Both the position numbers and the translations under genes were made by a program. Under the pieces are notes generated by a model, which made no database searches, was not told the origin of the DNA, and worked only from the letters and a program-made list of their open reading frames with translations. This document shows positions 16,513 to 32,667 of a stretch of DNA of 64,000 bases, in pieces. This DNA is from Burkholderiaceae bacterium (GTDB lineage: Bacteria; Pseudomonadota; Gammaproteobacteria; Burkholderiales; Burkholderiaceae_C): assembly GCA_913776825.1 (NCBI GenBank), contig CAJYPV010000027.1, forward strand, positions 124,001 to 188,000. The letters are read 5' to 3'. Within the stretch, counting starts at the first letter, position 1. Each line of letters begins with the position of its first letter.

Positions 16513-17328
16513 TCACGCCAGCACCACGTCCACGCCACGGCGACGCAGCTCGGCCACGATGGCCGGATCGGCGTCGCTGTCGGTGATCAGCAGATCGAGC
16601 TGTTCCACCGGCGCGATCACCGACAGATTGCGCTTGAGCAGCTTGGAGGCATCGGCGACGGCGATCACCTGGCGCGCGATCTTCATCATCTGCGCATTGA
16701 GCTGCGCTTCGAGCAGATGGGGCGTCATCAGGCCGATGTCCGGATCCAGGCTGTCGACGCCGAGGAACAGGCGGTCCGCATACAGGCTCTGCAGCGCGGT
16801 CACCGCTTGCGGGCCGGAGAGCGAATACGAGTTGGTGCGCAGCAGCCCGCCCGGCATGATCACATGCACATTCGGCACGTTGGCCAGCAGCACGGCGATG
16901 TTGAGCGCATTGGTGATCACGTTCAGCGACTGCAGCCGCAAGCCACGGATCTGCTTGGCGATCTCTTCGGTGGTGCTGCCGGAATCCAGCAGGATGGTCT
17001 CGCCGTCGCGAATCAGCCGCGCCGCCTCGGTGGCGATGCGCACCTTCTGCTCGTGATGCAGCTTCTGCTTGACGCTGATCGGCACTTCTTCCGTGTCGCG
17101 ATGCGCCAGCGCGCCGCCATGGGTGCGCAGCAGCGCGCCGCTGGAGGCCAGCGCATTCAGGTCGCTGCGAATCGTCACCACCGAGATGCCGAAGCGCTCG
17201 GCCAATTCATCCACCGTCACCCGGCCCTGGGCCTGCACCTGCTCGCGGATGAGGCGACGCCGCTCATCGATCAGCAGCGAAGCCTCATGCTTGTCGGCGT
17301 GGGAGCTGGTGGCAGAAGTGGCGCTCAT
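16513..17328 (-). CDS. DeoR/AgaR-type transcriptional repressor
   Basis: DeoR-family repressor of sugar catabolism: N-terminal winged helix (about residues 22-75, with VTVDELAERFGISVVTIRSDL and the downstream LLRTHGGA) and a C-terminal phosphosugar-sensing DeoRC domain. The latter has the typical LDSGSTTEEIAKQI and ADASKLLKRNLSVI motifs. It is the last gene of the leftward half of the galactosamine locus, which makes it the natural equivalent of AgaR. Its likely targets are the CTTTCG/CGAAAG repeats in the divergent intergenic region at 21.9-22.2 kb. The start is at the Ser/Ala-rich MSATSAT; the frame stays open 96 bases upstream but reads poorly there. Confidence 0.85.
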   Translation of the reverse strand: MSATSATSSHADKHEASLLIDERRRLIREQVQAQGRVTVDELAERFGISVVTIRSDLNALASSGALLRTHGGALAHRDTEEVPISVKQKLHHEQKVRIATEAARLIRDGETILLDSGSTTEEIAKQIRGLRLQSLNVITNALNIAVLLANVPNVHVIMPGGLLRTNSYSLSGPQAVTALQSLYADRLFLGVDSLDPDIGLMTPHLLEAQLNAQMMKIARQVIAVADASKLLKRNLSVIAPVEQLDLLITDSDADPAIVAELRRRGVDVVLA

Positions 17329-17420
17329 GGGTGGGCGAAAGGAAAGAAGTGGGCCGGCGACGGAACTTTCGAATGATATCGAGTGGCAGCGCCCTCGCGC
17401 ACGATCGGGCGCCTGCCAGA

Positions 17421-18371
17421 TCAACGACTTTCGAGTGACGACAGATCCAGCGTCACACCCGCCAGCCGTGCTGCCGCCATCGCCGCGCCCAGTTCCGGAC
17501 CGAATCGCGGCGTGCGCAGCTCAGCGCCGGGGCAGCGGCGGCTGAGCGCCTGTCGCAGCGGCGCGATCAGCCGCTCGCCGGTTTCAAACAGACCGCCGCT
17601 GTAAGACACCGGCAAGAGTGACCCTGCCGGAATCGCCAGTTGGCTCGCGACGCCGGCGGCCAGCGCGGCCAGTTCCTCGGCCGCGCGCACGATCAAGGCC
17701 TGTGCCTGATCGTCACCGTCCGCAGCGGCCGCCGTGACCAGCCGCGCCAGTTGCGCCAGTCGGCTGCGAGCAGCCTCGCCATTGACATGGGCGCACAAGT
17801 CCAGGTCGTGGCTCAGCTGGAAATGCTCGCGCACCCGATGCAGCAGCGGACCGGGCGTGGCACGGCCATCGGCCATGCGCGAGAACAACGCCAGACCTTC
17901 GCGCGCCAGCCAGTAGGCCGAGCCTTCGTCGCCGAAGACCTCGCCCCAGCCGCCGCAACGCGCGCTCGCGCCGGCCCATTCGCCATAGGCGATCGAGCCG
18001 GTGCCGGCGACCAGGCTGATGCCGTCCGCGCCGGCCAGCGAGCCGGCCCAACTGCAGATCATGTCGTTGCCGATGCGGCTGCGCGGCAGCAGGTCGATCA
18101 GCAGCGCATCGAACGCGGGCAGCAACTGGCTGTCCTCGCCGTGCGCGGGCAGGCCGGCGAAAGTCGCGGTGACCTGGTCGGCGCGCAGGCCGGCCTCGGT
18201 CAGCGTCGCCCGCACGCCGTCGTGCAGCAGGCGGCGCAGCGCGTCGAAGCCGATCTCCAGGTAGTAGCTGGTGGGGGCGAGGTGATGGGCCAGCCGCCGT
18301 CCGGATGCATCGAGCAGCAGGAAGGAGGTCTTGGTGCCGCCACCGTCGATGCCAAGGAAGACGCTGCTCAT
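17421..18371 (-). CDS. BadF/BadG-type amino-sugar kinase (probable GalN/GalNAc kinase)
   Basis: ASKHA-fold kinase of the BadF/BadG/BcrA/BcrD family, the group that includes N-acetylglucosamine kinase and the AgaK-type N-acetylgalactosamine kinase. The phosphate-1 loop is FLGIDGGGTKTS (residues 5-16), the phosphate-2 and adenosine motifs are VAGTGSIAYGE and SYSGGLFETG, and GGWGEVFGDEGSAYW is diagnostic of the family. The gene starts two bases after the AgaS-like stop codon. In context it should phosphorylate galactosamine or N-acetylgalactosamine at C6. Substrate choice is inferred only from neighbours. Confidence 0.82.
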   Translation of the reverse strand: MSSVFLGIDGGGTKTSFLLLDASGRRLAHHLAPTSYYLEIGFDALRRLLHDGVRATLTEAGLRADQVTATFAGLPAHGEDSQLLPAFDALLIDLLPRSRIGNDMICSWAGSLAGADGISLVAGTGSIAYGEWAGASARCGGWGEVFGDEGSAYWLAREGLALFSRMADGRATPGPLLHRVREHFQLSHDLDLCAHVNGEAARSRLAQLARLVTAAAADGDDQAQALIVRAAEELAALAAGVASQLAIPAGSLLPVSYSGGLFETGERLIAPLRQALSRRCPGAELRTPRFGPELGAAMAAARLAGVTLDLSSLESR

Positions 18372-18373
18372 GC

Positions 18374-19558
18374 TCACGCCTGCGACCGATCGAGGGGGTG
18401 GATGGTGACGCCGCTCACCACGCGGGTGACGGTGCCCGATGCGCTGGGATTGTCCGGCGTGATGCCCAGCTTCAGCGACGCCAGCAGCGCCAGGCATTGC
18501 CCGAAGACCAGCGCCACCGGCGCCAGGCCGAGATCGGGGGCGACGGCCGGCAAGGCCAGCGTCACATCGTCGCGTCCGGGCGTCTCCTCGCCCCAGGCGG
18601 CCTCGGTGCCCAGCGCCACCACCGTCGCGCGGCCCTCGCGGCGCAGCTCACGCAACAGGTCCAGGTCGTAGCGCCGGGTGTAGGCCTCGTTGGACAGCAG
18701 GATCAGCACCAGCGTGCGGTCATTCAGGACGGTCTTCGGGCCATGGCGAAAGCCCAGCGGCGAATCCGCCAGCGCCACCCATTGGCCGTCGGTCAGCTCC
18801 AGGATCTTCAGCGCCGCTTCACGGGCCAGACCCTGCAGACCATTGCTGCCCAGCACCACCACCCGCTCGAAGGGGCGGGCGGTCAGGGCGGTCAGCCGAT
18901 CCGTCTGACTCGCGAGCAGTTGCTCGGCGGCGGCGCTCAGTTGGGCGACGGGCGGCAGCGGCAACTGGAAAGCCCAGGCGGCCGCCAGCAGCATGCCGGT
19001 GAAGCTGGAGGTCATCGCGAAGGCGCGGTCATGGGTCTCGTCCGGCAGCAGCAGCACATGGGCATGCGGCTGGTCGATCAGACGTTGACGGAGCTGGCCC
19101 TCTGCGGCGCAGGTGACGATCAGGTGATGGCAGCGGCCGACCACCTGATCGGCCAGTGCCACCGCCGCCAGGCTCTCCGGGCTGTTGCCGGAACGGGCAA
19201 ACGACACCAGCAAGGTCGGCACACCGGCCGGCAGGCATTGCGCGGGATTGGAGACGATGTCGGTGGTGGCCACGGCCTCCACGCGCGGCGCGCGGCCGGG
19301 GGCGCGCTCGCTCAGTTGCTGCAGCAGCGAGGGGGCCAGGCATTGCCCGATGAAGGCGGAACTGCCGGCGCCGGTCAGCACGATGCGCAGGTCGGGCAGC
19401 GCCAGCAACGGCGCGAGAAAGGCGTCCAGCGCGGGACGCTGCCGCTGCACCAGGTCGTGGACCGCGGCCCAGACGGCGGGCTGCTGGGCGATCTCGCGGG
19501 CGGTGTGAGGCGCGCCGCGACGGTCCAGGTCGGTGGGGGCGAGGTGAAGCAAGGTCAT
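18374..19558 (-). CDS. agaS: AgaS-type SIS domain amino-sugar-phosphate isomerase/deaminase
   Basis: Double SIS-domain protein of 394 residues, the size of AgaS, the galactosamine-6-phosphate deaminase/isomerase that yields tagatose-6-phosphate. The first SIS module carries TGAGSSAFIGQCLAP and SFARSGNSPESLAAV; the second carries VVLGSNGLQGLAREA and GFRHGPKTVLNDRT. The N-terminus HTAREIAQQPAVW matches the AgaS/GlmS-like entry (TxxEIxxQPxxW). It lies between kbaZ (91 bp upstream) and the BadF-type kinase, so the order is the same as the steps kinase, deaminase and tagatose-phosphate handling. A GlmS-like glucosamine isomerase is the alternative but fits the context less well. Confidence 0.85.
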   Translation of the reverse strand: MTLLHLAPTDLDRRGAPHTAREIAQQPAVWAAVHDLVQRQRPALDAFLAPLLALPDLRIVLTGAGSSAFIGQCLAPSLLQQLSERAPGRAPRVEAVATTDIVSNPAQCLPAGVPTLLVSFARSGNSPESLAAVALADQVVGRCHHLIVTCAAEGQLRQRLIDQPHAHVLLLPDETHDRAFAMTSSFTGMLLAAAWAFQLPLPPVAQLSAAAEQLLASQTDRLTALTARPFERVVVLGSNGLQGLAREAALKILELTDGQWVALADSPLGFRHGPKTVLNDRTLVLILLSNEAYTRRYDLDLLRELRREGRATVVALGTEAAWGEETPGRDDVTLALPAVAPDLGLAPVALVFGQCLALLASLKLGITPDNPSASGTVTRVVSGVTIHPLDRSQA

Positions 19559-19649
19559 CGTGTCGGTCGTCTGAAAGAGGGAGGTCGGGCGCGGGGGCGC
19601 TGAGCGTGGGCAGCGATCGGGCCGGGCGTCGGGGAAGGCGGGTCGGCTT

Positions 19650-20945
19650 TCAAGCCGCGCAGGCCTCCAGATAGGGCCGCAACGACTGCGCCGTGCCGTC
19701 GCGCAGCAGCTCGACCGGACGATTGCGCAGCCGACCTTCGCGGATGGCGTCGTACTGCCGCGGCAGGTACTGGCTCAGCAAGGTCAGCGGCGGCGGCGAG
19801 CTTTCCAGCCGGTTGAGCAGACTTGCGCAGGCGCGCTGGACCGTCGGATGGGCCCAGTAATAGCGGATGCGGTCGCTCAGGCTGTAGGCCAGGTCCACTT
19901 CCAGCCGCTGGGCGTCCTGGTAATACGCGCGCCAGTGCTCGGGTTCGGCCCGCATCACGCCGAGCACGGTGTCGACCAGGCCGTCGCCCTGGCTGCGACG
20001 CTGTCCGAGCCAGTCGCGCTCCACGGCGGCCAGTGCCCACAGCGTCTCGCGCAGCGCGAAGGTCACGCCGGGGCCGACCTTCAGGATCGCGAAATGATCG
20101 CGGGCGAGCTGGGCGAGTCGTTCCGGCGTCTGGTAGTCCGTCGAATGGGCTTCGAAGACCAGCCGCGGCTCGGCGGCGATGAAGGCGCTCAGCGCGCGGG
20201 CTTTCTCGGGCCGGTAGTCGATCACCTTGTGATGGTCGAATTCCACGCCGGGCTGCACCACCATCGCGATGACGCGGTTCCAGGCATCGTCCAGTCCGGC
20301 CTGCGCGAAGCCTTCGCGGTGCAGCGCCAGCGTGTGGCCGGCCGCTTCGGGCGAGGTCACGGCCAGTTCGTCCAGATCCTCATGCGCGCCGCCCGGGACC
20401 GGCACTTCGGTGCCGATCACATACACCGGCGGCTCGCCGCGGTCCGGCGCGTCGGCCCAGGCCCGCTCGGCGGCGCGGCACAGGCGCACGGCGCGGGCGG
20501 CGATCTCCGGCTCGGGCAGGGGCACCGGGTCGTCGGCGCAGGACATCGAGCAATCCAGATGGATCTTGCGAAAGCCGGCCTGCACGTACTGCGCGACCAT
20601 GACTTCGGCCTTGGCCATCGCGACCTCGGCGGACTGCTTGCGCCACGCATTCGGGCCCAGATGGTCGCCACCCAAAATCAGCGATTCCGGCGACAGCCCT
20701 TCCTGCGCGGCGATGCCCAGCACGAAGCGACGGAAGTCGGCCGGCGTCATGCCGGTGTAGCCACCGTCCTGGTTGACCTGATTGGAGGTGGCCTCGATCA
20801 GCGCGGGGCGGCCTTGGGCCACGCATTCACGCAGGGTGGCGGCAATCACCACCGGGTGGGCGGAGCAGACCGAAGGAATGCCGACGGCGGTGGCGCCGGC
20901 GGGCGCCTGCTTGTGGCGGCGCACGAGTTCGAGCATGAGTTTCAA
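19650..20945 (-). CDS. kbaZ: KbaZ/GatZ/AgaZ-type tagatose-bisphosphate aldolase subunit
   Basis: Product of 431 residues related to KbaZ/GatZ, long called the non-catalytic subunit of D-tagatose-1,6-bisphosphate aldolase. The related AgaZ of Shewanella-type GalNAc pathways has been proposed to act as tagatose-6-phosphate kinase. Clear family motifs are GIPSVCSAHPVVI, IEATSNQVNQDGGYTGM and LGGDHLGPNAW. A TTG start at 20945 is preferred: it has AAGGAG five bases upstream, its second residue onward (KLMLELVRRHK) aligns with the family start, and it overlaps the upstream stop as TTGA. An ATG nine bases later is possible. No KbaY/GatY catalytic partner is encoded in the window. Confidence 0.85.
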   Translation of the reverse strand: MKLMLELVRRHKQAPAGATAVGIPSVCSAHPVVIAATLRECVAQGRPALIEATSNQVNQDGGYTGMTPADFRRFVLGIAAQEGLSPESLILGGDHLGPNAWRKQSAEVAMAKAEVMVAQYVQAGFRKIHLDCSMSCADDPVPLPEPEIAARAVRLCRAAERAWADAPDRGEPPVYVIGTEVPVPGGAHEDLDELAVTSPEAAGHTLALHREGFAQAGLDDAWNRVIAMVVQPGVEFDHHKVIDYRPEKARALSAFIAAEPRLVFEAHSTDYQTPERLAQLARDHFAILKVGPGVTFALRETLWALAAVERDWLGQRRSQGDGLVDTVLGVMRAEPEHWRAYYQDAQRLEVDLAYSLSDRIRYYWAHPTVQRACASLLNRLESSPPPLTLLSQYLPRQYDAIREGRLRNRPVELLRDGTAQSLRPYLEACAA

Positions 20946-21925
20946 GCGGGCTCCTTGTCCGCCGCAGTGGCGGCGTTGGCGGCGTTGGCGGCGTTGGCGG
21001 CGTTGGCGGCATGGGCGTCGTCGGCGCCGCCGGATGAATCGGTGGAAGCGGGCGAGCCGCCTTCCGGTTGAAGGGCGAGCAGCAGCGCGGCCAGCAGCGC
21101 CAGGCCCACGCCCACCAGCTTGGTGCCGCTGGGCGCGGTGCCGCTCAGGGCCATCGACATCAGCGCGGTCAGCAAGGGCGCGCCGGCATTCACCATCGGC
21201 GAGACCACCAGCGCCTTGCCGTAGCGGAAGGCATAGACCAGCGTCAGCGCGCCGATCGCATTCAGCACCTGGATCACCGCGGCCAGTCCCGGGCCGTTCC
21301 AGCCCCAGGGAATCGGGCGGCTGAAGTCGGTCATCCACAGCGCCACCGGCACACACAGCAGGGCGCTCAGGGTCATGTAGAAAAAGATGCTTTCCGCCGT
21401 GGCCGCGTTGTTGGCGGTCTTCAGGAAATACGCCTGCAGACCCCAGGCCAGCATCACCACCAGCGCCAGCACGAACCACAGGCCGAGCGGCTGGCCCTGT
21501 TGGCCGGTCTGGAAATCAAACAGCGGCAGCGAGCACAAGGCCAGCACGATGCCCGCCACGCCCAATCGCCCGGTGCGTTCGCGCAGCAGGCCGAAGGAGA
21601 GGGCGATCGTCACCGCCGGCGACAGCGACACGATCGGGAAGACCAGATAGGCCGGCCCCGATTCCACCGCCCGAAACAGCACCATCTGGCCGCCAGCGCC
21701 CAGCAGGCCCACCGCCAGGCCCAGCCCCATCGCACGCGGATCGCGCTGCAGCTTCCAGCCGGCACGGGCCAGCACCAGCAGCGCGGGCGGGATCATGGTC
21801 AGCGCCCACACCACGTAGATCAGCGTGTCGGGGAAGCCGCGCTCGGACGAGAGTCCGGTCAGCGCGCCCCAGGCACCCCAGAACAGGGTGGTGACCAGCG
21901 CATAGGTCAGCCAATGTCTTTGCAT
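20942..21925 (-). CDS. EamA/DMT superfamily permease, candidate amino-sugar importer
   Basis: Ten-helix drug/metabolite transporter with two EamA repeats: the first begins TYALVTTLFWGAWGALTG (residues 5-22) and the second LGLWFVLALVVMLAWGLQAY. WALTMIPPALLVLAR resembles the GRP/sugar-carrier branch. It is the first gene of the leftward operon and its stop overlaps the kbaZ start by four bases (TTGA), so it is translationally coupled to galactosamine catabolism. No PTS or other inner-membrane sugar carrier is present in the locus. A role as the GalN/GalNAc importer is therefore the simplest inference. The C-terminal tail contains tandem Ala-Ala-Asn repeats from a 9-bp DNA repeat. Confidence 0.82.
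   Translation of the reverse strand: MQRHWLTYALVTTLFWGAWGALTGLSSERGFPDTLIYVVWALTMIPPALLVLARAGWKLQRDPRAMGLGLAVGLLGAGGQMVLFRAVESGPAYLVFPIVSLSPAVTIALSFGLLRERTGRLGVAGIVLALCSLPLFDFQTGQQGQPLGLWFVLALVVMLAWGLQAYFLKTANNAATAESIFFYMTLSALLCVPVALWMTDFSRPIPWGWNGPGLAAVIQVLNAIGALTLVYAFRYGKALVVSPMVNAGAPLLTALMSMALSGTAPSGTKLVGVGLALLAALLLALQPEGGSPASTDSSGGADDAHAANAANAANAANAATAADKEPA
20963..21011. repeat. 9-bp tandem repeat in the EamA C-terminal coding region
   Basis: The nonanucleotide GGCGGCGTT (plus strand) is repeated about five times in tandem, with a decayed last copy, encoding Ala-Ala-Asn repeats in the cytoplasmic tail of the permease. The unit is a multiple of three, so copy-number change would alter tail length without breaking the frame. 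Confidence 0.75.
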
Positions 21926-21964
21926 GGTGGAAGCTTTCGGGAGAGGTCGTTGGGCTGGAATCAG

Positions 21965-21978
21965 CTTTCGTACGAAAG
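21965..21978. promoter_or_regulatory. Perfect 14-bp palindromic operator, probable AgaR/DeoR site
   Basis: CTTTCGTACGAAAG is a perfect inverted repeat 40 bp upstream of the EamA start. It overlaps the distal end of a predicted minus-strand -10 box, so bound repressor would block initiation of the leftward catabolic operon. The half-site CTTTCG recurs at 21934-21939. DeoR/AgaR-type operators with CTTTC-containing half-sites are known; assignment to the regulator at 16.5 kb is inferred. Confidence 0.6.
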
Positions 21979-22005
21979 AATAGAGCAGCGAAATCAGAAA
22001 CACAA
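21977..22005 (-). promoter_or_regulatory. Candidate sigma70 promoter of the leftward catabolic operon
   Basis: On the minus strand a TTGTGT -35 (22000-22005) and a TATTCT -10 (21977-21982) are separated by exactly 17 bp. They point toward the EamA-kbaZ-agaS-kinase-regulator operon, and the 14-bp palindrome begins within the -10 box and extends over the expected start site. Confidence 0.45.
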
Positions 22006-22130
22006 CGGAAGCAGCCCAATGCGCCGCAAGAAACCGGCGGTTTCGCGGGAAAACCCCAATCCATCGAGTACACCGACACGCGGGTCGGACAACCTCCTGT
22101 AAAAATCGCCATGGCTTCGCTGACACCAAT

Positions 22131-22212
22131 CTTTCGTTGAGGCTGTCATCGAAAGGTAAAACGTCGGTAAAAACCATATGCGAAATCATTCGAAAGCAAT
22201 CGTAGACTTTCG
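22131..22212. promoter_or_regulatory. Cluster of CTTTCG/CGAAAG half-sites upstream of the TonB receptor
   Basis: Four half-sites lie here: CTTTCG at 22131-22136, CGAAAG at 22150-22155, CGAAAG at 22191-22196 and CTTTCG at 22207-22212. They form one inverted and one everted pair in front of the rightward operon. With the palindrome at 21965 and the single site at 21934, there are seven copies in 280 bp, so one repressor probably controls both operons. The rest of the 408-bp intergenic region shows no gene. Confidence 0.5.
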
Positions 22213-22333
22213 GCAAGCCGGCAGGTCCAGAACGCCGGCCTTGCGCGCCTCCCTGCTGTCCCTCGGCGCGTCTTCCTTGAATGGCCTCCCCCGGCTGCCT
22301 CCCCGGCCGCCACGACAACGAAGGAATTCCGAG

Positions 22334-25243
22334 ATGAGTGCTCGACTGCATGCGCCGCAAGCGCGGTTTGCCCTCCAGCCCCTGAGCGCGGCCCTGACGG
22401 CCCTGGGCTGCTGGGCCCTGGCGCTGCCGGCCCTGGCGCAGGACGCGCCCAGGACCGAAACGCCGGCGGCGCCCGCCGCGGCCCAGGCGGCCCCGGCCGA
22501 CAAAGACGCCAAGGACGCCAAGGACGCCAAGGAAAAGAAGGAGGCGGACCAGACCCTGGACCGCGTCGAGATCACCGGCACGCGCGCCAGCCTGGAGCGC
22601 TCGCTCAATCTGAAGCGCAATGCGGCCGCGGTGCAGGACAGCATCAGCGCCACCGAGCTGGGCCGCTTTCCTGACGACAACGTCGCCGACTCGCTCAGCC
22701 ACATCACCGGCGTGTCGATCTCGCGGACGGCGGGCGGCGAAGGTCAAAAGGTCAGCGTGCGCGGCCTCGGGCCGGAATACACCCTCACGACCTTCAATGG
22801 CCGCATCCTGGCCACCGATGGCGAAGGCCGCGATTTCGCCTTCGACGTGCTGCCTTCGGACATCATCAACGGCGCCGATGTGGTGAAGTCCGCGCAGGCC
22901 TCGGTGATGGAGGGCGCGATCGGCGGCCTGGTGAACCTGCGTTCGGCCAGCCCGTTCGACCAGCCGGGGCAGCATGGCTTGTTGCGGGTCGAGGGTGACC
23001 GCAACACCATGTCCAAGCTCAATGGCGGCAAGATTTCCGGCACCTACAGCCAGACCTTCGGCAAGACGCTCGGCGTGCTGGTCGGCGTGGTCTATGCCGA
23101 TCGCAAGGTGCGCACCGACACCGCCGGCAATGACGGCGGCTGGACCCGCAATCCGATTGCCGATCCGGCGGCCAACTGGACCGGCAATGCCTGGGGCGGC
23201 AACATCGATCCGAACGGCAATGGCGTGCTGGATCCGGACGAGGAAGGCCTGATCGGACCGGGCCAGTTCCGGGTCGGCTCGATCATGGAACAGAAGAAGC
23301 GGCTGGCGCTGTCGGGCAAGGTGGAATGGCGCCCGAGCGAGCAGCTCAAGGTCACGGTGGACGGCATCAAGACCCGGCTCGATTCGCCGCAGGTCGGCTA
23401 TCAGCAATCGTTCTACACGCTGTTCGCGCCGGGGCGCTGGTCCGACATCCAGGTGCAGAACGGCGTGGTGACCGGCTTCAAGATGAACAACCCGGATCCG
23501 GAACAGCAACTGAATCCGGAGCTGCTGAACCTGACGACGCACCGCGTGGTGGACAGCGCGCTCTACGGCGCGAATGTCGAGTGGAAAGCCACCAACACCC
23601 TGAGCTTCAATGGCGACGTCTACCAGTCCAGCTCGAAGCGCCATTCGGGAGGGCAGGACACCTACACCGTCCTGCGGATGAACCAGCCGAATGTGACGTC
23701 GGTGCAGCTCACCGGCTCGCAGGTGCCGAACCTGACCACGACCTTCGCCGATGGACGCGATCTGATCGGGGGGCTGGCCAACGGCCAGTTCGGTCCGACT
23801 GATTTCAACACCCACTATCTGGGACTGAGCGGCGACAACATCGACGACAAGATTCGCGGCCTCACCCTGAACGGCACCTGGACCGTCGATCGCTTCAACA
23901 TCGACAGCCTGCGCTTCGGCATCAGCCGCACCCGGCGCGACAAGAACCGCGACCTGGTGGACAACGCCATCAACGGCGGCGAGAACTACTACTCCGGCAG
24001 CAACGCGATCAATGTCGGCGCGCTCGGCGGCAATGTGCTGGATCAGCATCTGAACCTGCCCAACTTCATGAGCGGCGTCAGCGGCAACTTCCCGCGCAGC
24101 TTCCTGGGCTTCGATGTGCCCAATTACCTGGCGGCGCTGCAGGCCTACAACGGCAAGCCGCGTCCGGATGGCGGCACCTACGACTACAGCCAGGCCGGAC
24201 CGGTGTGGAATCCGCTGCAGAGCTACCGCGTGCGGGAGACCACCACCTCGGCCTTCCTGCAGGCGGATCTCTCCGGCGACCAATGGAATGCGGATGTGGG
24301 CGTGCGGCTGGTCCGCACCAAGACGACGGCCAAGGCCTGGGATGCCAAGATCGCCAGCCTTACCGAGAACGGCCCGTTCAACTACACCGCCGTGTATGCA
24401 GACCCGACCGAGGTGGTGCAGGACGCCAGCTACACCTACGGGCTGCCGTCGGCCAACTTCGTCTGGCATTTCAATGACAAGCTGCAGCTGCGCCTGGGCG
24501 CCGCCAAGACCATGGCGCGGCCGTCGGTGGAGCAGCTCGCGCCGACCAGCACCACCGCCAGCGTGGCCTGGGGCGATTTCACCCAGGTCTACGGCGGCAA
24601 TGCCGACCTGAAGCCCTACAGCGCCAAGCAATACGACGCCTCCCTGGAGTGGTATTACGCCCGCAACTCGGCGCTGACCTTCGCGGTGTTCCAGAAGAAC
24701 ATCAAGAACCAGATCACCACCAGCTGGCAGACCGGCGTGGACATCGGCGTCCCGGGCCATCTGTTCAATGTGATGAAGCCGATCAACGGCGACACCGCCC
24801 GGGTGCGCGGCATGGAGATCGGCTTCCAGCATCTGTGGGAGAACGGCTTCGGCGTGCGGGCGCAGCACACCCGCAACCATTCGAAGAGCGTGGTGGCGGG
24901 CGTCGAAGGACCGCTCGCGGGCATCGCGCCGGCGACGTCCTCGCTGGGCGTGCTGTATGAGAAAGGACCGTGGAGCCTGAGCGCCACGGCGGACCACACC
25001 GATGAATTCGTCTCGGCGATCAATGTCATCGGTCCCGGTTTTCATGAGCGCGCCAAGGCCATCACCTGGCTCACCGCGCAGGCCTCCTACGAGGTCAATG
25101 AATGGCTGAAGCTCAGCATCGAAGGCCGCAACCTCACCGACGCCAAGCAGCAGTACACGCTGGGCAACGGCGCGATCACGCTTCCCAACGGCTACAACCG
25201 TTGGGGCCGCGCGGTCATGTTGGGTGCGAGCCTGAAGTTCTGA
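22334..25243 (+). CDS. TonB-dependent receptor for oligosaccharide uptake
   Basis: Outer-membrane TonB-dependent transporter of 969 residues. A signal peptide (about 1-36, ending ALPALAQ) is followed by an Asp/Lys/Ala-rich linker, a TonB-box-like region and plug (LDRVEITGTRASLERSLNLK). The N-terminal pattern NVADSLSHITGVSISR and the length match the large carbohydrate-type receptors of Caulobacter and Xanthomonas rather than siderophore receptors. The barrel ends in Phe (LGASLKF). The ATG at 22334 has AAGGA upstream; an ATG 156 bases earlier would hide the signal peptide. As first gene of the rightward operon it should import poly- or oligo-galactosamine fragments. Confidence 0.88.
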   Translation: MSARLHAPQARFALQPLSAALTALGCWALALPALAQDAPRTETPAAPAAAQAAPADKDAKDAKDAKEKKEADQTLDRVEITGTRASLERSLNLKRNAAAVQDSISATELGRFPDDNVADSLSHITGVSISRTAGGEGQKVSVRGLGPEYTLTTFNGRILATDGEGRDFAFDVLPSDIINGADVVKSAQASVMEGAIGGLVNLRSASPFDQPGQHGLLRVEGDRNTMSKLNGGKISGTYSQTFGKTLGVLVGVVYADRKVRTDTAGNDGGWTRNPIADPAANWTGNAWGGNIDPNGNGVLDPDEEGLIGPGQFRVGSIMEQKKRLALSGKVEWRPSEQLKVTVDGIKTRLDSPQVGYQQSFYTLFAPGRWSDIQVQNGVVTGFKMNNPDPEQQLNPELLNLTTHRVVDSALYGANVEWKATNTLSFNGDVYQSSSKRHSGGQDTYTVLRMNQPNVTSVQLTGSQVPNLTTTFADGRDLIGGLANGQFGPTDFNTHYLGLSGDNIDDKIRGLTLNGTWTVDRFNIDSLRFGISRTRRDKNRDLVDNAINGGENYYSGSNAINVGALGGNVLDQHLNLPNFMSGVSGNFPRSFLGFDVPNYLAALQAYNGKPRPDGGTYDYSQAGPVWNPLQSYRVRETTTSAFLQADLSGDQWNADVGVRLVRTKTTAKAWDAKIASLTENGPFNYTAVYADPTEVVQDASYTYGLPSANFVWHFNDKLQLRLGAAKTMARPSVEQLAPTSTTASVAWGDFTQVYGGNADLKPYSAKQYDASLEWYYARNSALTFAVFQKNIKNQITTSWQTGVDIGVPGHLFNVMKPINGDTARVRGMEIGFQHLWENGFGVRAQHTRNHSKSVVAGVEGPLAGIAPATSSLGVLYEKGPWSLSATADHTDEFVSAINVIGPGFHERAKAITWLTAQASYEVNEWLKLSIEGRNLTDAKQQYTLGNGAITLPNGYNRWGRAVMLGASLKF

Positions 25244-25400
25244 GCCTCGCCGGCGCGGCGAGCCATCGCCGCGCCACACGCCATCGCGCTCCTGGCGATG
25301 GCGACGTGCGCATCACGCTGGTGTCCCTCCCCTCGGCAGCGGCGCTTCCCTTGTCCCCTTCAACGCGGTCCTCGGGCCGCTCGTTCAATGAGGAGAACCC

Positions 25401-26213
25401 ATGAAGCGAATTTCTTCCAAGTGGATCCAGGCCGGCGCGTCGGTGCTGCTGGGCTTGACGATGGCGGCCTCTGCGCAGGCGCAGAGCTGGTGGAAGCCGG
25501 GGGTGAACACCACCTGGCAATGGCAGCTCACCGGCAACATCAACACCAGCTACAACGTCGACGTCTACGACCTGGACCTGTTCAACACCTCCACGCAGAC
25601 CATCGCCCAGCTCAAGGCGGCCGGTCGCAAGGTGGTGTGCTATTTCTCCGCCGGCAGCTCGGAGGATTGGCGCACCGACTTCAACCGCTTCCAGGCCGCC
25701 GACATGGGCAAGGCGCTGGATGGCTGGGAAGGCGAACGCTGGCTGGACACCCGTTCGGTCAATGTGCGCGCGATCATGCTGAGCCGTCTGGACCTGGCGG
25801 TGTCCAAGGGCTGTGACGGCGTGGAGCCGGACAACGTGGATGGCTATTCCAACAGCACCGGCTTCCCGCTGAGCGCCGCCACCCAGCTCGACTACAACAA
25901 GTACCTCGCCAATGCGGCCCATGCCCGCGGCCTGGCGATCGCGCTGAAGAACGATGTGGACCAGCTCTCCGCGCTGGAACCCTACTTCGACATGGCGGTC
26001 AACGAGCAGTGCAACCAGTACGCCGAATGCGGCGGCTATTCGGTCTTCACCAGCAAGGGCAAGCCGGTGTTCAACGCCGAGTACGCCAGCAAGTACCGCA
26101 AGAACACCAGCGGTGCGCGCGACAAGCTCTGCGCGGCGATGGCCACCGCCAAGATCCGCACCTTGGTGCTGGCGCTCGATCTGGACGATTCCTATCGGTT
26201 CAGCTGCTTCTGA
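25401..26213 (+). CDS. GH114 endo-alpha-1,4-polygalactosaminidase
   Basis: Predicted exported hydrolase of alpha-1,4-linked galactosamine polymers (GH114, also found as the hydrolase domain of PelA and in fungal Ega3). The signal peptide covers residues 1-28 (MAASAQAQ at its end). The (beta/alpha)8 core shows VYDLDLFNT, KVVCYFSAGSSEDWR and GCDGVEPDNVDGY (138-149). A second acidic region, AVNEQCNQY, has Glu202. Acidic residues in these last two motifs (such as Asp139, Glu142, Asp144 and Glu202) are the best candidates for catalysis. Four or more Cys suggest disulfides. A GAGGAG ribosome-binding site precedes the ATG. Position between the TonB receptor and a GH36-like gene strongly supports a role in galactosaminan degradation. 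Confidence 0.88.
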   Translation: MKRISSKWIQAGASVLLGLTMAASAQAQSWWKPGVNTTWQWQLTGNINTSYNVDVYDLDLFNTSTQTIAQLKAAGRKVVCYFSAGSSEDWRTDFNRFQAADMGKALDGWEGERWLDTRSVNVRAIMLSRLDLAVSKGCDGVEPDNVDGYSNSTGFPLSAATQLDYNKYLANAAHARGLAIALKNDVDQLSALEPYFDMAVNEQCNQYAECGGYSVFTSKGKPVFNAEYASKYRKNTSGARDKLCAAMATAKIRTLVLALDLDDSYRFSCF

Positions 26214-26382
26214 TCGGTGGTGCGTCGCGAGCTGATCGACCGATCGGTTCGTGGCGCAGGCCCGCTCACCGCCCTCGGCGCGGGTGCGTGAGCGGGCTGC
26301 TTCTCAGGCTCGCCGAGCCTCTCTTCTCTTCTCTGATCTTCTCCTCGCGCGCCGGTCCGGTCGCGCTCACCAGGTCCCGACG

Positions 26383-27543
26383 ATGAGACATTCCCTTCGC
26401 ACCGCCGCTCTGGCGACTCTTCTTACCGCGATGAGCGCGGGCCTCGCGCCCTGGGCCCATGCTGCGGATGCGGTCCAGGCCTCGGCCAAACCGGTGACCA
26501 AGCCGGCCAGCCGGGCGCCTGCGCGCTACACGATGGCCGACTTCGCCCGTGTGCCGAAGGTGGACGCGCATGTGCATCTGCACAACCCGGATCCGGCCTT
26601 CCTGAAGGGCGCGCATCGGCTCGGCTGCCGTGTGTTGACGATCAATGTCGACTATCCCGATTTCCCGCCGCTCGATGACCAGCAGCGGGTGGCGATCGCG
26701 CTGCGGCAGGCCCGTCCGACCGACCTGGCCTGGGCGACCAGTTTCTCCAGCGACACCTCGGACCAGCCCGGTTGGCTGGCGTCGACCCGACGCCGCATCG
26801 ATGACGGCCTGCGCGCCGGTGCGGTCGGGGTGAAGGTCTGGAAGAACATCGGCATGAGCCTGCGCAAGGCTGATGGCTCGCTGGTGATGATCGATGACGA
26901 GCGCTTTGCGCCGCTGTTCGAGGATCTGGCGCAGCGCGGCATTCCGCTGCTGGGTCACCAGGGCGAGCCGCACAACTGCTGGCTGCCGCTGGAGCAGATG
27001 ACGGTCAACAACGATCGCGCCTATTTCGCTGCGCATCCGCAATACCACATGGCCCTGCATCCGGAGATGCCGAGCTGGGAAGCGCAGATGGCCGCGCGCG
27101 ACCGCATGGTGGCGGCCCATCCGTCCCTGCAGTTCGTCGGCATGCACATGGCATCGCTGGAGCGCAATGTGGATGAGCTGGCGGCCTTCCTGGATCGATT
27201 CCCGAAGGCCGTCGTCGACCTGGCGGCGCGCATCGGGCAGTTGCAGTCGCAGAGCCAGCACGATCGCGAGAAGGTGCGGGCCTTCATGATCCAGTATCAG
27301 GACCGCCTGCTGTACGGCACCGACCTGTCGCAAACGCCGGAGCAATCCGGCCAGGCACTGCTGCGGGAGGTGACGCCGATCTGGCGGCAACATTGGCGCT
27401 ATTTCAATACCGAGGAGACCTTCAAGGTGGCTGATCTGGATCGACCGGTGCAGGGCCTGGGCCTGCCGCGCGAGGTGGTGGACAAGCTCTACCACCGCAA
27501 TGCCGAGCGCACCTTCCCGACCGCCTGGAAGGCGCCGCAATGA
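26383..27543 (+). CDS. Exported amidohydrolase family protein
   Basis: Amidohydrolase_2-type metal-dependent hydrolase of about 386 residues with a signal peptide (1-28, ending PWAHAADA). The metal-binding HxH is in KVDAHVHLH, a second metal site in GIPLLGHQGEPHN, then FVGMHMASLERN and the late Asp in LLYGTDLSQTPEQ. Export to the periplasm is unusual for this superfamily. Its stop overlaps the start of the following GH36-like gene (ATGA), so the two are translationally coupled. It could remove acyl or lactone groups from the imported glycan, or cleave something unrelated; the sequence alone does not decide. The listed start begins the signal peptide. Confidence 0.78.
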   Translation: MRHSLRTAALATLLTAMSAGLAPWAHAADAVQASAKPVTKPASRAPARYTMADFARVPKVDAHVHLHNPDPAFLKGAHRLGCRVLTINVDYPDFPPLDDQQRVAIALRQARPTDLAWATSFSSDTSDQPGWLASTRRRIDDGLRAGAVGVKVWKNIGMSLRKADGSLVMIDDERFAPLFEDLAQRGIPLLGHQGEPHNCWLPLEQMTVNNDRAYFAAHPQYHMALHPEMPSWEAQMAARDRMVAAHPSLQFVGMHMASLERNVDELAAFLDRFPKAVVDLAARIGQLQSQSQHDREKVRAFMIQYQDRLLYGTDLSQTPEQSGQALLREVTPIWRQHWRYFNTEETFKVADLDRPVQGLGLPREVVDKLYHRNAERTFPTAWKAPQ

Positions 27544-30305
27544 CGGCCCGCCGAGCCTTCCTCCAATGGCTGGGGGCCGCGCCGGTCGCGGGGCTGGCGC
27601 CGCGTCTGGCGTTCGCCGCCTCGGCAGGTGCCGCGGCCTCGGCCCGGGCGGCGGATGTGGGCCGCGGTCATGTGCGGCTGCAGGACGAGCGCCTGTCCCT
27701 CCAGTTCGACGACCAGATGCGCAGCCGACTCGTGCGGCTGGGTGGGCCACGTCCTCAGCCGCTGACCGGCTTCGACGCCAGTGAACAGTTGCTGCTGGCC
27801 AGTGGTCGGCCGATGCCGCGCTTCCGCCTGCTGTCCGCCACGCCCAGCAGCGGCGCCACGCCGCTCGGGCCGGGCCAGCGTCTGGCGTTGACCGGACGAA
27901 GTACCGACGGGCTGGAGAAGTCCGTTACCGTGACCTTGCTGGATGAGCATCCCGGCGTCGCACTGCTGGAGGTGGTGTTCACGAATTCATCGGATCGTCC
28001 GGTCGAGCTGGCCGGATGGACCGTCGGCGCGCATCAGTTGCTGCCGGCCCCGCGTCATGCGGGTGGCTGGTGGAGTTATTCCGGTGCCACCCATCAGGAT
28101 CGGCGCGACTGGATGCAGCCGGTCCAGCGGGGCTTCGACCAACGCAACTTCATGGGCATGAATGCGTCGGACTATGGCGGCGGCACGCCGCTGGTCGACG
28201 TGTGGCGCCGCGATCTGGGCGTGGCGATCGGTCATCTCGACAAGCTGCCTCGGCTGGTCGCGCTGCCCGTGAAGGCGGTGGGTGATCAGGTCGCGCTGTC
28301 CTTGCGCAGCGACGAGCCGCAGACGCTCGCCGCCGGCGCCCGCCTGAGGCTGCCGCTGGCCTTCATCACGGTGCATGACGGCGATTGCTTCGTGCCGCTG
28401 GACCGTTATCGGCGCCTGATGAATGCGCAGGGCCTCGCGGCGCCGGAGCCGCCGCGCAGCGCGCATGAGTCGGTCTGGTGCGCCTGGGGCTATGAACGCG
28501 ACTTCTCGCTGCAGCGGGTGCGCGACACGCTGCCCAAGGCGCAGGAGCTCGGTCTGAAATGGGCGGTGCTGGATGACGGCTGGCAGCGCCTGACCGGTGA
28601 CTGGCACACCATCGACCTGGCCAAGTTCCCGCGCGGCGAGGCCGACATGAAGGCGCTGGTGGACGACATCCATGCGCGCGGCATGAAGGCGCGGCTGTGG
28701 ATTGCGCCGCTGGCGGTGGCTCCGGGCAGCGATGAGCTGCATGACCACACCGATCTGCTGCTGCTGGACAAGGACGGCGCGGTGCAGATGGTCTCGTGGT
28801 GGAACTGCTTCTATCTCTGTCCCGCGCATGAGCAGACGCAGCAGCGCGTCGCCGCGCTCTTCAAGAAGATCATCGGCGACTGGGGCTTCGATGGCTTGAA
28901 GATCGACGGCCAGCATCTCAACGGTGTCGCGCCTTGCTTCAATCCCAAGCATCGGCATGCGCGTCCCGAGGAGTCGGTCGAGCGGATGGCCGATTTCTAC
29001 CGCGCGATGTTCGAGGCGGCCCACGCGGCCAATCCGGAAGCGGTGGTGGAGGTCTGTCCCTGCGGCACCAGCTATGCCTTCCACAACATGCCGTGGATCG
29101 ATCAGGCGCCGGCCTCGGACCCGCTGTCGAGCTGGCAGGTGCGGCACAAGGGCAAGGCGCTGAAGGCGCAGATGGGGCGCTGGTCGGCCTATGCCGGCGA
29201 TCATGTGGAGCTGTCCACCGGCGGCCAGGATTTCGCTTCCAGCGTGGGCGTGGGGGCGGTGGTCTCCACCAAGTTCACCTGGCCGGAAGATCCCAAGCCC
29301 AAGGACTCCTTCCTGCTGACGCCGGAGCGCGAGCCGCACTGGCGCCGCTGGATCGCCGCCCACAATGCCAAGGGACTGTCCGACGGCAGCTACCGCGGCG
29401 AGCTCTACGACATCGCCTTCGACAAGCCCGAGACCCATGTGGTGGAGAAGAACGGCGTCATGCATTACGCCTTCTATGCGCCGAGCTGGGACGGACCGAT
29501 CACCCTGCGTGGCCTCACGCCCGGCACCTGGCGGCTGCGGGACTATGTCAACGGCATCGACCTCGGGCGGGTCGATGCGGCCCGACCCACCGTCCCGCTG
29601 CGCTTCAAGGAGCATCTGCTGATCGAGGCGGTGTTGGAAGGCACCGCCGACCGACCGCTGGCCCGCGCGGCGCGGCTGCCGTCGCGCCTGATCGGCCGCG
29701 ATGGTTTCCCGGTGGCCTCCGCCTGGGACGATGCGCCGGCGAGCTTCTTTGCGCACGACTGGCGCGGCCAGCCGCTGTCCGGCACGCAGTCCACACGGGT
29801 GCAGATGCTGCATGCGGGCGGCGTGCTGCATCTGCGTTTCCTGAGCCGCTACAACGCGCTGCACCTGCATGAGCGCGAGGCTTCCGCCACGGCGATCTGG
29901 CCCTTGTGGGAGCGCGATGTGGTGGAGGTTTTCCTCCAGTCCCCCGCCGACGCCGGCACCGACCGCTATCGCGAGCTCGAGGTCGCCCCGAACGGCCTGG
30001 TGATGGACATCGATCTGCGCGGCCCCCAACGTCAGCGTCTGGTCGGTGCCTGCCGGGCGCGCACGTCGGTGGACGAGCGCCACCGCCTGTGGACTGCGGA
30101 GCTGTCCGTGCCGCTGTGGGGCGCCGGTCTGCCGGGCGGTGCGGCGGTGCGACCGGACCGTCTGCCGGATGGGTGGCGCATCAACCTGTTCCGCATCGAA
30201 GGCAGCGGGGAAGGGCGGCTGTTCTCGGCGTGGAATCCGACGGGGAGCGAGAAGGCCAACTTCCATGTGCCGAAGGCGTTCGGGCAGTTGCGGTTGGAGG
30301 CGTGA
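27540..30305 (+). CDS. GH36-like alpha-galactosidase/N-acetylgalactosaminidase with CBM9-like C-terminus
   Basis: Large (921 residues) exported glycosidase. The N-terminus MTARRAFLQWLGAAP resembles a Tat signal (twin Arg plus FLQW). A beta-sandwich domain (about 40-310) precedes the catalytic barrel with WAVLDDGWQRLTGDWHTID, then FDGLKIDGQHLN with the probable nucleophile Asp456, then VCPCGTSYAFHNMPW and a later ASDP that may hold the acid/base. From about residue 720 a CBM9-like domain follows (WERDVVEVFLQSPAD, LEVAPNGLVMDID). GH36/GH27 relatives cleave alpha-galactose or alpha-GalNAc, either of which suits a galactosamine-rich glycan. It is coupled by a 4-bp overlap to the amidohydrolase gene. 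Confidence 0.85.
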   Translation: MTARRAFLQWLGAAPVAGLAPRLAFAASAGAAASARAADVGRGHVRLQDERLSLQFDDQMRSRLVRLGGPRPQPLTGFDASEQLLLASGRPMPRFRLLSATPSSGATPLGPGQRLALTGRSTDGLEKSVTVTLLDEHPGVALLEVVFTNSSDRPVELAGWTVGAHQLLPAPRHAGGWWSYSGATHQDRRDWMQPVQRGFDQRNFMGMNASDYGGGTPLVDVWRRDLGVAIGHLDKLPRLVALPVKAVGDQVALSLRSDEPQTLAAGARLRLPLAFITVHDGDCFVPLDRYRRLMNAQGLAAPEPPRSAHESVWCAWGYERDFSLQRVRDTLPKAQELGLKWAVLDDGWQRLTGDWHTIDLAKFPRGEADMKALVDDIHARGMKARLWIAPLAVAPGSDELHDHTDLLLLDKDGAVQMVSWWNCFYLCPAHEQTQQRVAALFKKIIGDWGFDGLKIDGQHLNGVAPCFNPKHRHARPEESVERMADFYRAMFEAAHAANPEAVVEVCPCGTSYAFHNMPWIDQAPASDPLSSWQVRHKGKALKAQMGRWSAYAGDHVELSTGGQDFASSVGVGAVVSTKFTWPEDPKPKDSFLLTPEREPHWRRWIAAHNAKGLSDGSYRGELYDIAFDKPETHVVEKNGVMHYAFYAPSWDGPITLRGLTPGTWRLRDYVNGIDLGRVDAARPTVPLRFKEHLLIEAVLEGTADRPLARAARLPSRLIGRDGFPVASAWDDAPASFFAHDWRGQPLSGTQSTRVQMLHAGGVLHLRFLSRYNALHLHEREASATAIWPLWERDVVEVFLQSPADAGTDRYRELEVAPNGLVMDIDLRGPQRQRLVGACRARTSVDERHRLWTAELSVPLWGAGLPGGAAVRPDRLPDGWRINLFRIEGSGEGRLFSAWNPTGSEKANFHVPKAFGQLRLEA

Positions 30306-30359: not shown

Positions 30360-31241
30360 TCAACCCGTCGACAGTACGGGTAGCGGTGGTTGGCCCATGG
30401 CCTGGGCCAGGAGGTCCAGCAAGGTCTGCATGTCTTGCGGCGATTCGTGCGCGAAGACATGGTCTGCCACGCGTTCGGCCACACGGATGGAGCGGCGCGC
30501 CTCCGGCTCATGGACACCCGCGATGACAAAGATTCGCTGGGTCTGCGGCGCGCCACTGAGTTGATCAGCCAGGCCCAGCGTGAGGGCTTTCGCCTGGACC
30601 TCGGTACGACGCTGGGCCACATGCGTGGCATGGCGGAAGTCTGCGGTTTGAAGGCAGTGCAGGGCGCCGTTCTGCAGCGCGAAGTCCAGCGACAGTCCTT
30701 CTTCCACACTCAGCGGATAGCGAGGCACGATCCGATGGTCGCCGAGGCCTTCTCCCGGTTTGGCGAGCCAGCCGTGGGCGCCAAAAACCTGTTTCATGTC
30801 GAGGAACAGCCGCGAGATGGGCATCCGCTCCCGGGTGGTCTTGGGATTCACCGGCTCTGCCGCGACGTCCAGTGCCCACTGCACAGCGCGGTCATAGCTG
30901 TCCTTCGAGTCGAAGCTGATGAAGCCTTCCGAGGGAGCCAGTCGCACCGGGCCCACGCCTGAGAGATGGAGCGGCAACAGGTCTGGTTCTCGCGACAACT
31001 CCGCAGCGAGACGTCCCACGCCTTCGCGCAAGGCCTCGATGTGGCAGGACGGGTCGACGGCGCTCACCTTCCGGAGACTCCGAGCCAGATGCGCACGGAC
31101 CTGGCCATCGGGCAGCGTCACCAACAGGCCAATGGCCACTCGCTCGTTGCGATGCGAGTAGGGGACGTATTCGACAAGGCGGGTGGTTGCTCGCGCGTCG
31201 ATCTCGTGCTCAACAAAAATGGGCGATAGGGCGGACTGCAT
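30360..31241 (-). CDS. DUF3037 domain-containing protein
   Basis: Product of 293 residues whose N-terminus, ARATTRLVEYVPYSHRNERVAIGLLV, matches the DUF3037 family (a conserved R-x-V-P-x-x-x-R-x-E-x-V-N/A-I-G pattern). There is no signal peptide or membrane segment. DUF3037 genes often sit beside a HipA-like kinase gene; none is present here, so this copy is an orphan. The function is unknown. It is convergent with the GH36-like gene, 54 bp from its stop, and is not expected to belong to that locus. Confidence 0.65.
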   Translation of the reverse strand: MQSALSPIFVEHEIDARATTRLVEYVPYSHRNERVAIGLLVTLPDGQVRAHLARSLRKVSAVDPSCHIEALREGVGRLAAELSREPDLLPLHLSGVGPVRLAPSEGFISFDSKDSYDRAVQWALDVAAEPVNPKTTRERMPISRLFLDMKQVFGAHGWLAKPGEGLGDHRIVPRYPLSVEEGLSLDFALQNGALHCLQTADFRHATHVAQRRTEVQAKALTLGLADQLSGAPQTQRIFVIAGVHEPEARRSIRVAERVADHVFAHESPQDMQTLLDLLAQAMGQPPLPVLSTG

Positions 31242-31474
31242 GGGCCTCGTTCAGACGTTGCGCGAGGCCATCAATATAGGGATTTGCCCGCCGGAGCGAG
31301 GTCGCTTGTGGGGGGATGTGTTTGCTCCGCTCCACACCAGAAAGGGGGCTGAATGGCAGGAGCTGTACCCAGCCGCTGTTACCCATCCCGCCGCACAAGT
31401 CGCGACAGCCGTCCCATGAGACTGACCGTGCGGGCGGGCTGCTCACGGCATCCGCATCTCCGCACGCCGAGCGT

Positions 31475-32365: not shown

Positions 32366-32667
32366 CTGCTCCTGGCCCGAGGCCGCGCCGCGGCGGCGTT
32401 CTGTGCCGCCTGCCGTCCGCGCCGCCCTCATTCACCGATGGGGTTGAAACCGGGCGCACGTTAGCGCATCCGATCACCGTCGCGAGCCCCACCGATGGGT
32501 GGTCTGTCGCCGATTCCCGGCAGGCTACGTTTGTTGACAGATCGAGGCTTGACGACGCAGCACGCATCGCCACGAAATGCCTGGCGGACAAATCTTCCGA
32601 CACGGTCCGGCACGCAAGGGATACTGCCGCCCGCTGAAGTCCGGCCGCTCGATGGCCGCCGTGGCGC
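32366..32667. other. 302-bp intergenic stretch, no gene seen
   Basis: No reading frame here looks coding, and I see no hairpin with a T-run, no clear promoter pair and no repeat. It presumably contains the promoter of the divergent CsgG-like lipoprotein gene, but I cannot locate it. Confidence 0.4.

Follow-up and report, generated by a model that had tools for sequence, protein, structure and literature searches.

Analysis of a 64,000-nucleotide stretch of contig CAJYPV010000027.1 from a Burkholderiaceae bacterium (hereafter, the window) outlined a divergent nine-gene locus at 16513-30305 with which the cell probably cuts up, imports and catabolises galactosamine-rich polymers, and the same gene set is present in distantly related bacteria. 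Judging from sequence comparisons, this is likely to be an AgaR-controlled, TonB-dependent locus for alpha-1,4-linked polymers of galactosamine (GalN) and N-acetylgalactosamine (GalNAc), with fungal galactosaminogalactan (GAG) as the likeliest substrate and Pel as a possible one. From the gene content, the conserved catalytic residues, the conserved linkage and a shared putative operator we infer every activity, transport direction and polymer identity discussed below. GAG is an adhesive, immune-shielding mould polymer and Pel a major biofilm glue. Bacterial consumption of either is little described, and no bacterial GAG or Pel utilisation locus was found in the titles and abstracts displayed by searches of open-licence PMC literature.

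Profile matches recovered all nine genes at or near the limits given in the original prediction, and upheld its account of their content. The leftward unit, agaR-agaK-agaS-agaZ-eamA, encodes an AgaR-like regulator, a BadF-type kinase, AgaS, a KbaZ-like protein and an EamA transporter, with eamA transcribed first; the rightward unit encodes a TonB receptor, GH114, an exported amidohydrolase and a GH36-like enzyme (Table 1). The kinase and AgaS genes almost abut, and the last 4 bp of the amidohydrolase gene (27540-27543) are shared with the GH36 gene, both operon-like features. In the proposed pathway, endo-enzymes (the GH114 of the locus, together with an unlinked lectin-GH114 and an unlinked Spherulin4/GH135 protein) would cut the polymer, the TonB receptor would carry the oligomers into the periplasm, the amidohydrolase would act on them there, perhaps by deacetylation, and the GH36 enzyme would free GalN. 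This would be imported by EamA, phosphorylated to GalN-6-phosphate (GalN-6-P) by the BadF kinase and turned into tagatose-6-phosphate by AgaS, and AgaZ would complete the pathway with a class II aldolase of housekeeping type, whose gene lies outside the locus.

A GH36 enzyme of the FpGalNase type

Residues 103-698 of the GH36-like protein matched the structures of FpGalNase from Flavonifractor plautii (9awt, E 6e-70; 9ayu, E 1e-69) and 8x1b (E 5e-72), which is labelled an alpha-galactosidase yet aligns to the same residues as FpGalNase; other PDB alpha-galactosidases reached E 2e-10 at best. FpGalNase is described as removing alpha-GalN after deacetylation, with conserved residues W317, D346, D347, W387, K461 and D463 and specific residues Y464, C513 and D532 (PMC11762096). 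With the numbering offset of FpGalNase taken from the alignment, the equivalents in the window enzyme are W316, D345, D346, W387, K454, D456, G457, C508 and D527. Eight of the nine published active-site residues are hence kept, and all eight are found in 35 of the 36 aligned rows (each position has one gap, and L033 and L053 represent one gene). Their retention points to alpha-GalN being released with its amine free, and makes an exo-alpha-galactosaminidase a better reading of this protein than the trimming of alpha-Gal or GalNAc proposed originally.

A plain alpha-galactoside (melibiose/raffinose-like) locus, with GH36 as an alpha-galactosidase, would account for the Pfam Melibiase match, and we regard it as very improbable. 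The closeness to FpGalNase structures over PDB alpha-galactosidases (8x1b apart) and the retention of the FpGalNase-specific Cys and Asp argue against it, and galactoside use involves neither AgaS nor KbaZ; a generic locus of this kind was therefore rejected on the GH36 residues and the neighbouring genes. The CBM9-like tail originally attributed to the enzyme is reduced to a weak match, with PF16011 (E 0.0089; 16 bits, cut-off 25) and PF06452 (E 0.12; 13 bits, cut-off 23.4) both below cut-off, and the Burkholderia, Duganella and Sphingomonas homologues, of 624-731 aa as called, are too short to carry it. A twin-arginine translocation-like RRAFL sequence lies near the N-terminus of the window enzyme and in 13 of the 36 rows, and start choice may hide others.

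Conservation of the locus

Scanning a single genome of each species yielded 35 loci encoding GH36 relatives, for which a neighbourhood of ~10 kb (less where contigs end) was analysed and gene presence was called with bit-score thresholds of our own setting. Since L061 and L067 lie on one contig, and L077 and L079 in one metagenome-assembled genome (MAG), these loci stem from 33 assemblies; they encompass Roseateles, Mitsuaria, Pelomonas, Rubrivivax MAGs, Massilia, Pseudoduganella, Duganella, the Burkholderia cepacia complex and Sphingomonas. The kinase, AgaS, AgaZ and EamA were each encoded beside GH36 in 32 of the 35 loci, the catabolic genes being absent from L061, L067 and L079 (one half of a MAG locus that is split). 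The TonB receptor was present in 29, and AgaR and the amidohydrolase in 28 each, with the AgaR and AgaS counts lowered by loci ending near the locus edge (L047-L051, L055, L134). GH114 and GH27 (Melibiase_2) were present in 13 loci each, DUF4832 in 10, Spherulin4 in four and a NagA-like protein in one.

In the bacterial family, GH36 was encoded in 3/250 genomes. Random samples gave a concordant picture: GH36 was encoded in 3/313 genomes of the phylum, and the amidohydrolase (E up to 1e-40) in 1/369 genomes of the class, this being the source genome of the window, and 5/398 of the phylum. Three of the four other phylum genomes with the amidohydrolase (L132, L133 and L134; 48-54% identical) encode GH36, AgaZ, EamA, a TonB receptor and AgaR alongside it, with the kinase and a full AgaS in L132 and L133, and the L134 contig cut within AgaS. 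Both phylum genomes with GH36 other than the source genome are among these three and carry the amidohydrolase. In the fourth, L135, the homologue is distant and belongs to a different locus of tagatose type; no NagA match was detected in L132-L135. The conserved co-occurrence anticipated by the original prediction was hence observed for the kinase, AgaS, KbaZ and EamA, both across the 35 loci and in the random phylum samples. EamA by itself was rejected as a marker of the locus, given that the neighbourhoods of six distant homologues from the order (55-57% identical) bear no relation to it. GalN catabolism, the TonB receptor, the amidohydrolase and the FpGalNase-like GH36 make up the core of the locus, with the endo-enzymes as interchangeable accessories.

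GH114 and other accessory enzymes

The GH114 protein belongs to its family by a wide margin (PF03537, 296 bits, cut-off 27) and matched fungal Ega3 (6oj1, E 1.5e-67) and a Fusarium GH114 (9ep6, E 3.4e-23). In Ega3, D189 and E247 are the verified nucleophile and acid/base, and W154 lies on a loop (PMC12054363). Counting by hand on the pairwise alignment, these map to D144, E202 and W109 of the window enzyme, which are kept in 22 of 22 rows. The proposed Ega3 type is thus supported by the catalytic pair, and endo-cleavage of deacetylated stretches is predicted. The further equation of GH114 with PelA did not hold: PMC12054363 assigns the PelA hydrolase to GH166, and the window enzyme, as a GH114, hence falls outside that type. 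Strong GH114 matches (>280 bits) were found in 9/250 genomes of the bacterial family, and most other matches in these genomes (52-90 bits) lie in frames of ~900-1,200 aa, a length like that of PelA.

GH114 had also been placed at the centre of the locus, and in this role it was rejected in favour of that of an accessory: it is missing from 22 of the 35 loci, and at seven other GH114 places in the family (L034-L040) no further locus gene was found nearby. Where present, it adopts three arrangements. In the window, L047-L051 and L055 its gene is flanked by those for the TonB receptor and the amidohydrolase; in L052-L054 it occupies the distal end of the locus, on the opposite strand; and in Burkholderia (L064-L066, L080) it comes directly after GH36 and is followed by a porin gene, with the TonB receptor and amidohydrolase absent. 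These Burkholderia cepacia complex loci are a compact version, in which a GNAT acetyltransferase gene ends the catabolic unit. Loci of Pelomonas, Massilia and Pseudoduganella without GH114 carry GH27-NPCBM and DUF4874/DUF4832 genes, and Spherulin4 (Sph3/GH135 family) genes also occur in GH114-less loci of Pelomonas and a MAG. The DUF4874/DUF4832 proteins (L059:12709-14115, L056:14710-16638 and relatives), found in Pelomonas with a ricin-type lectin, are candidate new glycosidases for the same polymer. The DUF4832 model is weak (mean predicted local distance difference test, pLDDT, of 64), and its best matches are GH5-like barrels, with template-modelling scores (TM-scores) of up to ~0.35.

The absence of GH114 from most GH36 loci means that the polymer cannot be read from the conserved core alone. 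Together with the reported action of FpGalNase on blood-group A glycans (PMC11762096), it would also fit a locus that takes alpha-GalNAc/GalN from other glycans, such as lipopolysaccharide, teichoic acids or glycoproteins, with GH114 as a bystander. We consider this quite unlikely, given the three arrangements tying GH114 to the locus, the operator tying in the unlinked GH114, and the scarcity of strong GH114 proteins in the family.

The exported amidohydrolase and a possible deacetylation of GalNAc

No PDB relative of the amidohydrolase was detectable by sequence, using either the single sequence or a profile of 17 homologues. An H-x-H motif, H191, H254 and D313 are invariant in all 17 aligned homologues, a set that we take to be the metal ligands of the superfamily. 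The structural model (mean pLDDT 78, with loops near the active site below 50) is closest to decarboxylases and other COG2159/PF04909-type proteins, with modest TM-scores of up to ~0.5.

The amidohydrolase, to which the original prediction gave no function, is among the most constant parts of the locus, and no NagA/AgaA-like protein was found by profile matches among the window locus genes. Its near-constant partnership with an enzyme for free amines, and the missing cytoplasmic GalNAc-6-phosphate (GalNAc-6-P) deacetylase, suggest that it may act on GalNAc residues by deacetylation in the periplasm, other reactions being possible. We tentatively entertain, at rather less than even confidence, that it represents a new GalNAc deacetylase family acting before GH36. 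Acetate would then be taken off outside the cytoplasm and GalN imported, no GalNAc-6-P deacetylase would be needed, and the two enzymes would form an unrelated counterpart of the gut FpGalNAcDeAc/FpGalNase pair. The only full NagA of the source genome (C19:116336-117421) is encoded among NagK-like and NagB-II-like genes; agaA and nagA are interchangeable in E. coli (PMC3668189), and by analogy the unlinked NagA could still serve GalNAc-6-P.

The L135 homologue (38% over 225 aa) was excluded as the same amidohydrolase, since it has no signal-like N-terminus. L135:5217-11302 is a different GalN/tagatose-type locus, encoding AgaR, AgaS, two PfkB kinases, a LacD-like aldolase and the distant amidohydrolase, together with a protein the size of a TonB receptor and an exported protein of 652 aa that has no Pfam match.

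A shared putative AgaR operator

The gap between the EamA and TonB receptor genes holds a palindrome (CTTTCGTACGAAAG) and a CTTTCG-N13-CGAAAG site, and at least one such site lies at the same place in each of 14 searched Roseateles, Mitsuaria and Pelomonas loci. In the 5.74-Mb source genome, the pattern CTTTCG-N0-20-CGAAAG was matched at seven places, two of them in the locus. Another (C17:66542) is 227 bp upstream of the earliest possible start of a second, unlinked GH114 gene, L032:9540-11357(-), in which GH114 stands behind a ricin-B-type lectin domain, and another (C31:231219) is ~260 bp upstream of the start called for an unlinked Spherulin4 gene 82% identical to the gene of a Pelomonas locus. 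The remaining three are near genes without visible link. From the seven places, the chance of the pattern in a given 300-bp promoter is ~4 in 10,000.

Half-site clusters were searched in 134 kb of source DNA, comprising two stretches chosen for the unlinked enzymes, with the rest of the window, L094 and L103 as background. The agaR, eamA and TonB receptor promoters and the DNA preceding the Spherulin4 gene accounted for all clusters of three half-sites within 120 bp. The site is also present at the convergent GH114 genes of L052-L054, and the pattern was not detected in the seven GH114 loci searched from genomes where the GH36 search gave no hit. The putative operator constitutes a clear regulatory prediction joining three unlinked genome places. 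The unlinked Spherulin4 (GH135-type) gene, L102:9478-10317(+), has four half-sites upstream, and ~3.5 kb further upstream lie a TonB receptor-like gene and two genes that, by eye, look like a cupin/JmjC protein and a tryptophan halogenase.

Identity of the polymer

The dedicated Pel/GAG locus of the original prediction stands as a locus for alpha-GalN polymers, on the Ega3 residues, the FpGalNase type and the linked catabolic genes; for the source genome itself Pel and GAG are inseparable. GH27 includes alpha-GalNAc-ases as well as alpha-galactosidases, so its presence in relatives gives only a lean towards GAG. As proof of galactose it was dropped, the loop that separates the two activities not being readable. 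Taken together, the GH27 and Spherulin4 genes of relatives somewhat favour a fungal polymer.

A locus serving instead bacterial Pel, which contains GalN and GalNAc but no Gal and would come from neighbours or the cell's own biofilm, is in our view somewhat unlikely. Nothing in the locus of the source genome is galactose-specific, and GH114-like enzymes are reported to act on deacetylated alpha-1,4-GalN stretches, a related GH191 enzyme cutting Pel (PMC12054363). Against this stand the GH27 and Spherulin4 genes in the same operon of relatives, and the unlinked Spherulin4 gene that shares the putative operator.

Several observations weigh against the proposed AgaR-controlled locus for GalN/GalNAc polymers. 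Beyond the 22 loci without GH114, the position of FpGalNase Y464 is occupied by Gly in the window enzyme and in all 35 rows with data, AgaR and AgaS fall below their NCBIfam cut-offs (Table 1), TIGR02815 being nonetheless the best family by far for the latter, and the Spherulin4 protein matched Sph3 structures at E 0.25 only. The sole NagA-like gene beside a locus, L068:1-726(-), occurs with the amidohydrolase also present. Regarding the operator, the half-site spacing varies (2, 12, 13, 14, 16), and the reversed pattern occurs 14 times in the source genome, against seven forward, so that the pattern is not over-represented and only its places count. In the 14 relatives, other sites number 2-9 per genome and controls 7-20, as bare counts.

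Organisation of the window locus

The coordinates of the locus features are compiled in Table 1. The kinase scored 89 bits against NagK_SO3507, far below the cut-off of 370. AgaZ is reported to act as a tagatose-6-phosphate kinase. AgaS is a GalN-6-P deaminase/isomerase in E. coli (PMC3668189). Downstream of the locus, at 30360-32431, lie genes for a DUF3037-like protein slightly below cut-off and a lipoprotein-like open reading frame; in the relative L047, a neighbouring gene matches CsgG.

Table 1. Features of the predicted galactosamine polymer locus, in window coordinates.
Feature	Position	Strand	Evidence
AgaR-like DeoR-family regulator	16513..17328	-	NF040755 AgaR 242 bits, cut-off 260; DeoRC E 4e-46
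Two CTTTCG/CGAAAG half-sites, agaK-agaR gap, putative autoregulation	17336..17371	.	half-site search
Third half-site, inside 3' end of kinase gene	17428		
BadF/BcrA-type sugar kinase, putative GalN kinase, AgaK-like	17421..18371	-	PF01869 E 1.7e-36
AgaS-family GalN-6-P deaminase/isomerase (predicted)	18374..19558	-	TIGR02815 453 bits, cut-off 529
KbaZ/GatZ (AgaZ)-like protein	19650..20936	-	TIGR02810 592 bits, cut-off 569, passed
EamA inner-membrane transporter, putative GalN importer	20942..21925	-	PF00892 E 3.6e-23
Putative AgaR operator, palindrome CTTTCGTACGAAAG, before EamA	21965..21978	.	
Putative AgaR operator CTTTCG-N13-CGAAAG, before TonB receptor	22131..22155; further half-sites 22191, 22207	.	
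TonB-dependent receptor, putative oligosaccharide importer	22334..25243	+	TIGR01782 575 bits, E 2.5e-172, above cut-off
GH114 endo-alpha-1,4-polygalactosaminidase (predicted), signal-like N-terminus	25401..26213	+	PF03537 E 1.4e-88
Exported PF04909 (Amidohydro_2) amidohydrolase, candidate GalNAc deacetylase	26251..27543, probable start 26383	+	E 1.7e-15
FpGalNase-like GH36 alpha-galactosaminidase (predicted), weak CBM9-like tail	27540..30305	+	Melibiase E 3.4e-12

Comparison with known systems

The locus supplies several enzyme candidates: a deacetylase family, an environmental FpGalNase relative, DUF4832 and GH27 partners and bacterial GH114 proteins. The E. coli aga/gam cluster, unlike the window locus, uses a phosphotransferase system (PTS) and agaA, and is not known to contain polymer-degrading enzymes. 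It resembles the window locus in AgaR, in AgaS as GalN-6-P deaminase/isomerase and in KbaZ (PMC3668189). The GalNAc set described for Shewanella (agaK, agaS, agaP, omp-Aga, agaA-II and agaO; PMC2996990) is closer in its kinase and permease route in place of a PTS, its AgaS and its TonB-type outer-membrane protein. The window locus differs from this published set in having no GalNAc-6-P deacetylase gene, and in encoding an EamA transporter, an exported amidohydrolase, an FpGalNase-like GH36 and GH114.

The F. plautii FpGalNAcDeAc/FpGalNase pair (PMC11762096) is matched by an FpGalNase-like GH36 predicted to free alpha-GalN after deacetylation, but the partner in the window, as compared with the pair as described there, is a PF04909 amidohydrolase, the setting is a proteobacterial GalN catabolic locus, and Y464 is replaced by Gly. 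The fungal GAG cluster, with Ega3 (GH114) and Sph3 (GH135), shares the same two hydrolase families, by the Ega3 match and the Spherulin4 Pfam family respectively. Its enzymes are reported to function in synthesis and remodelling (PMC12054363), whereas the bacterial ones lie beside import and catabolism genes; bacterial GH114 proteins are also described there as difficult to obtain in soluble form. The combination corresponds to TonB-dependent glycan utilisation joined to an already known GalN catabolism.

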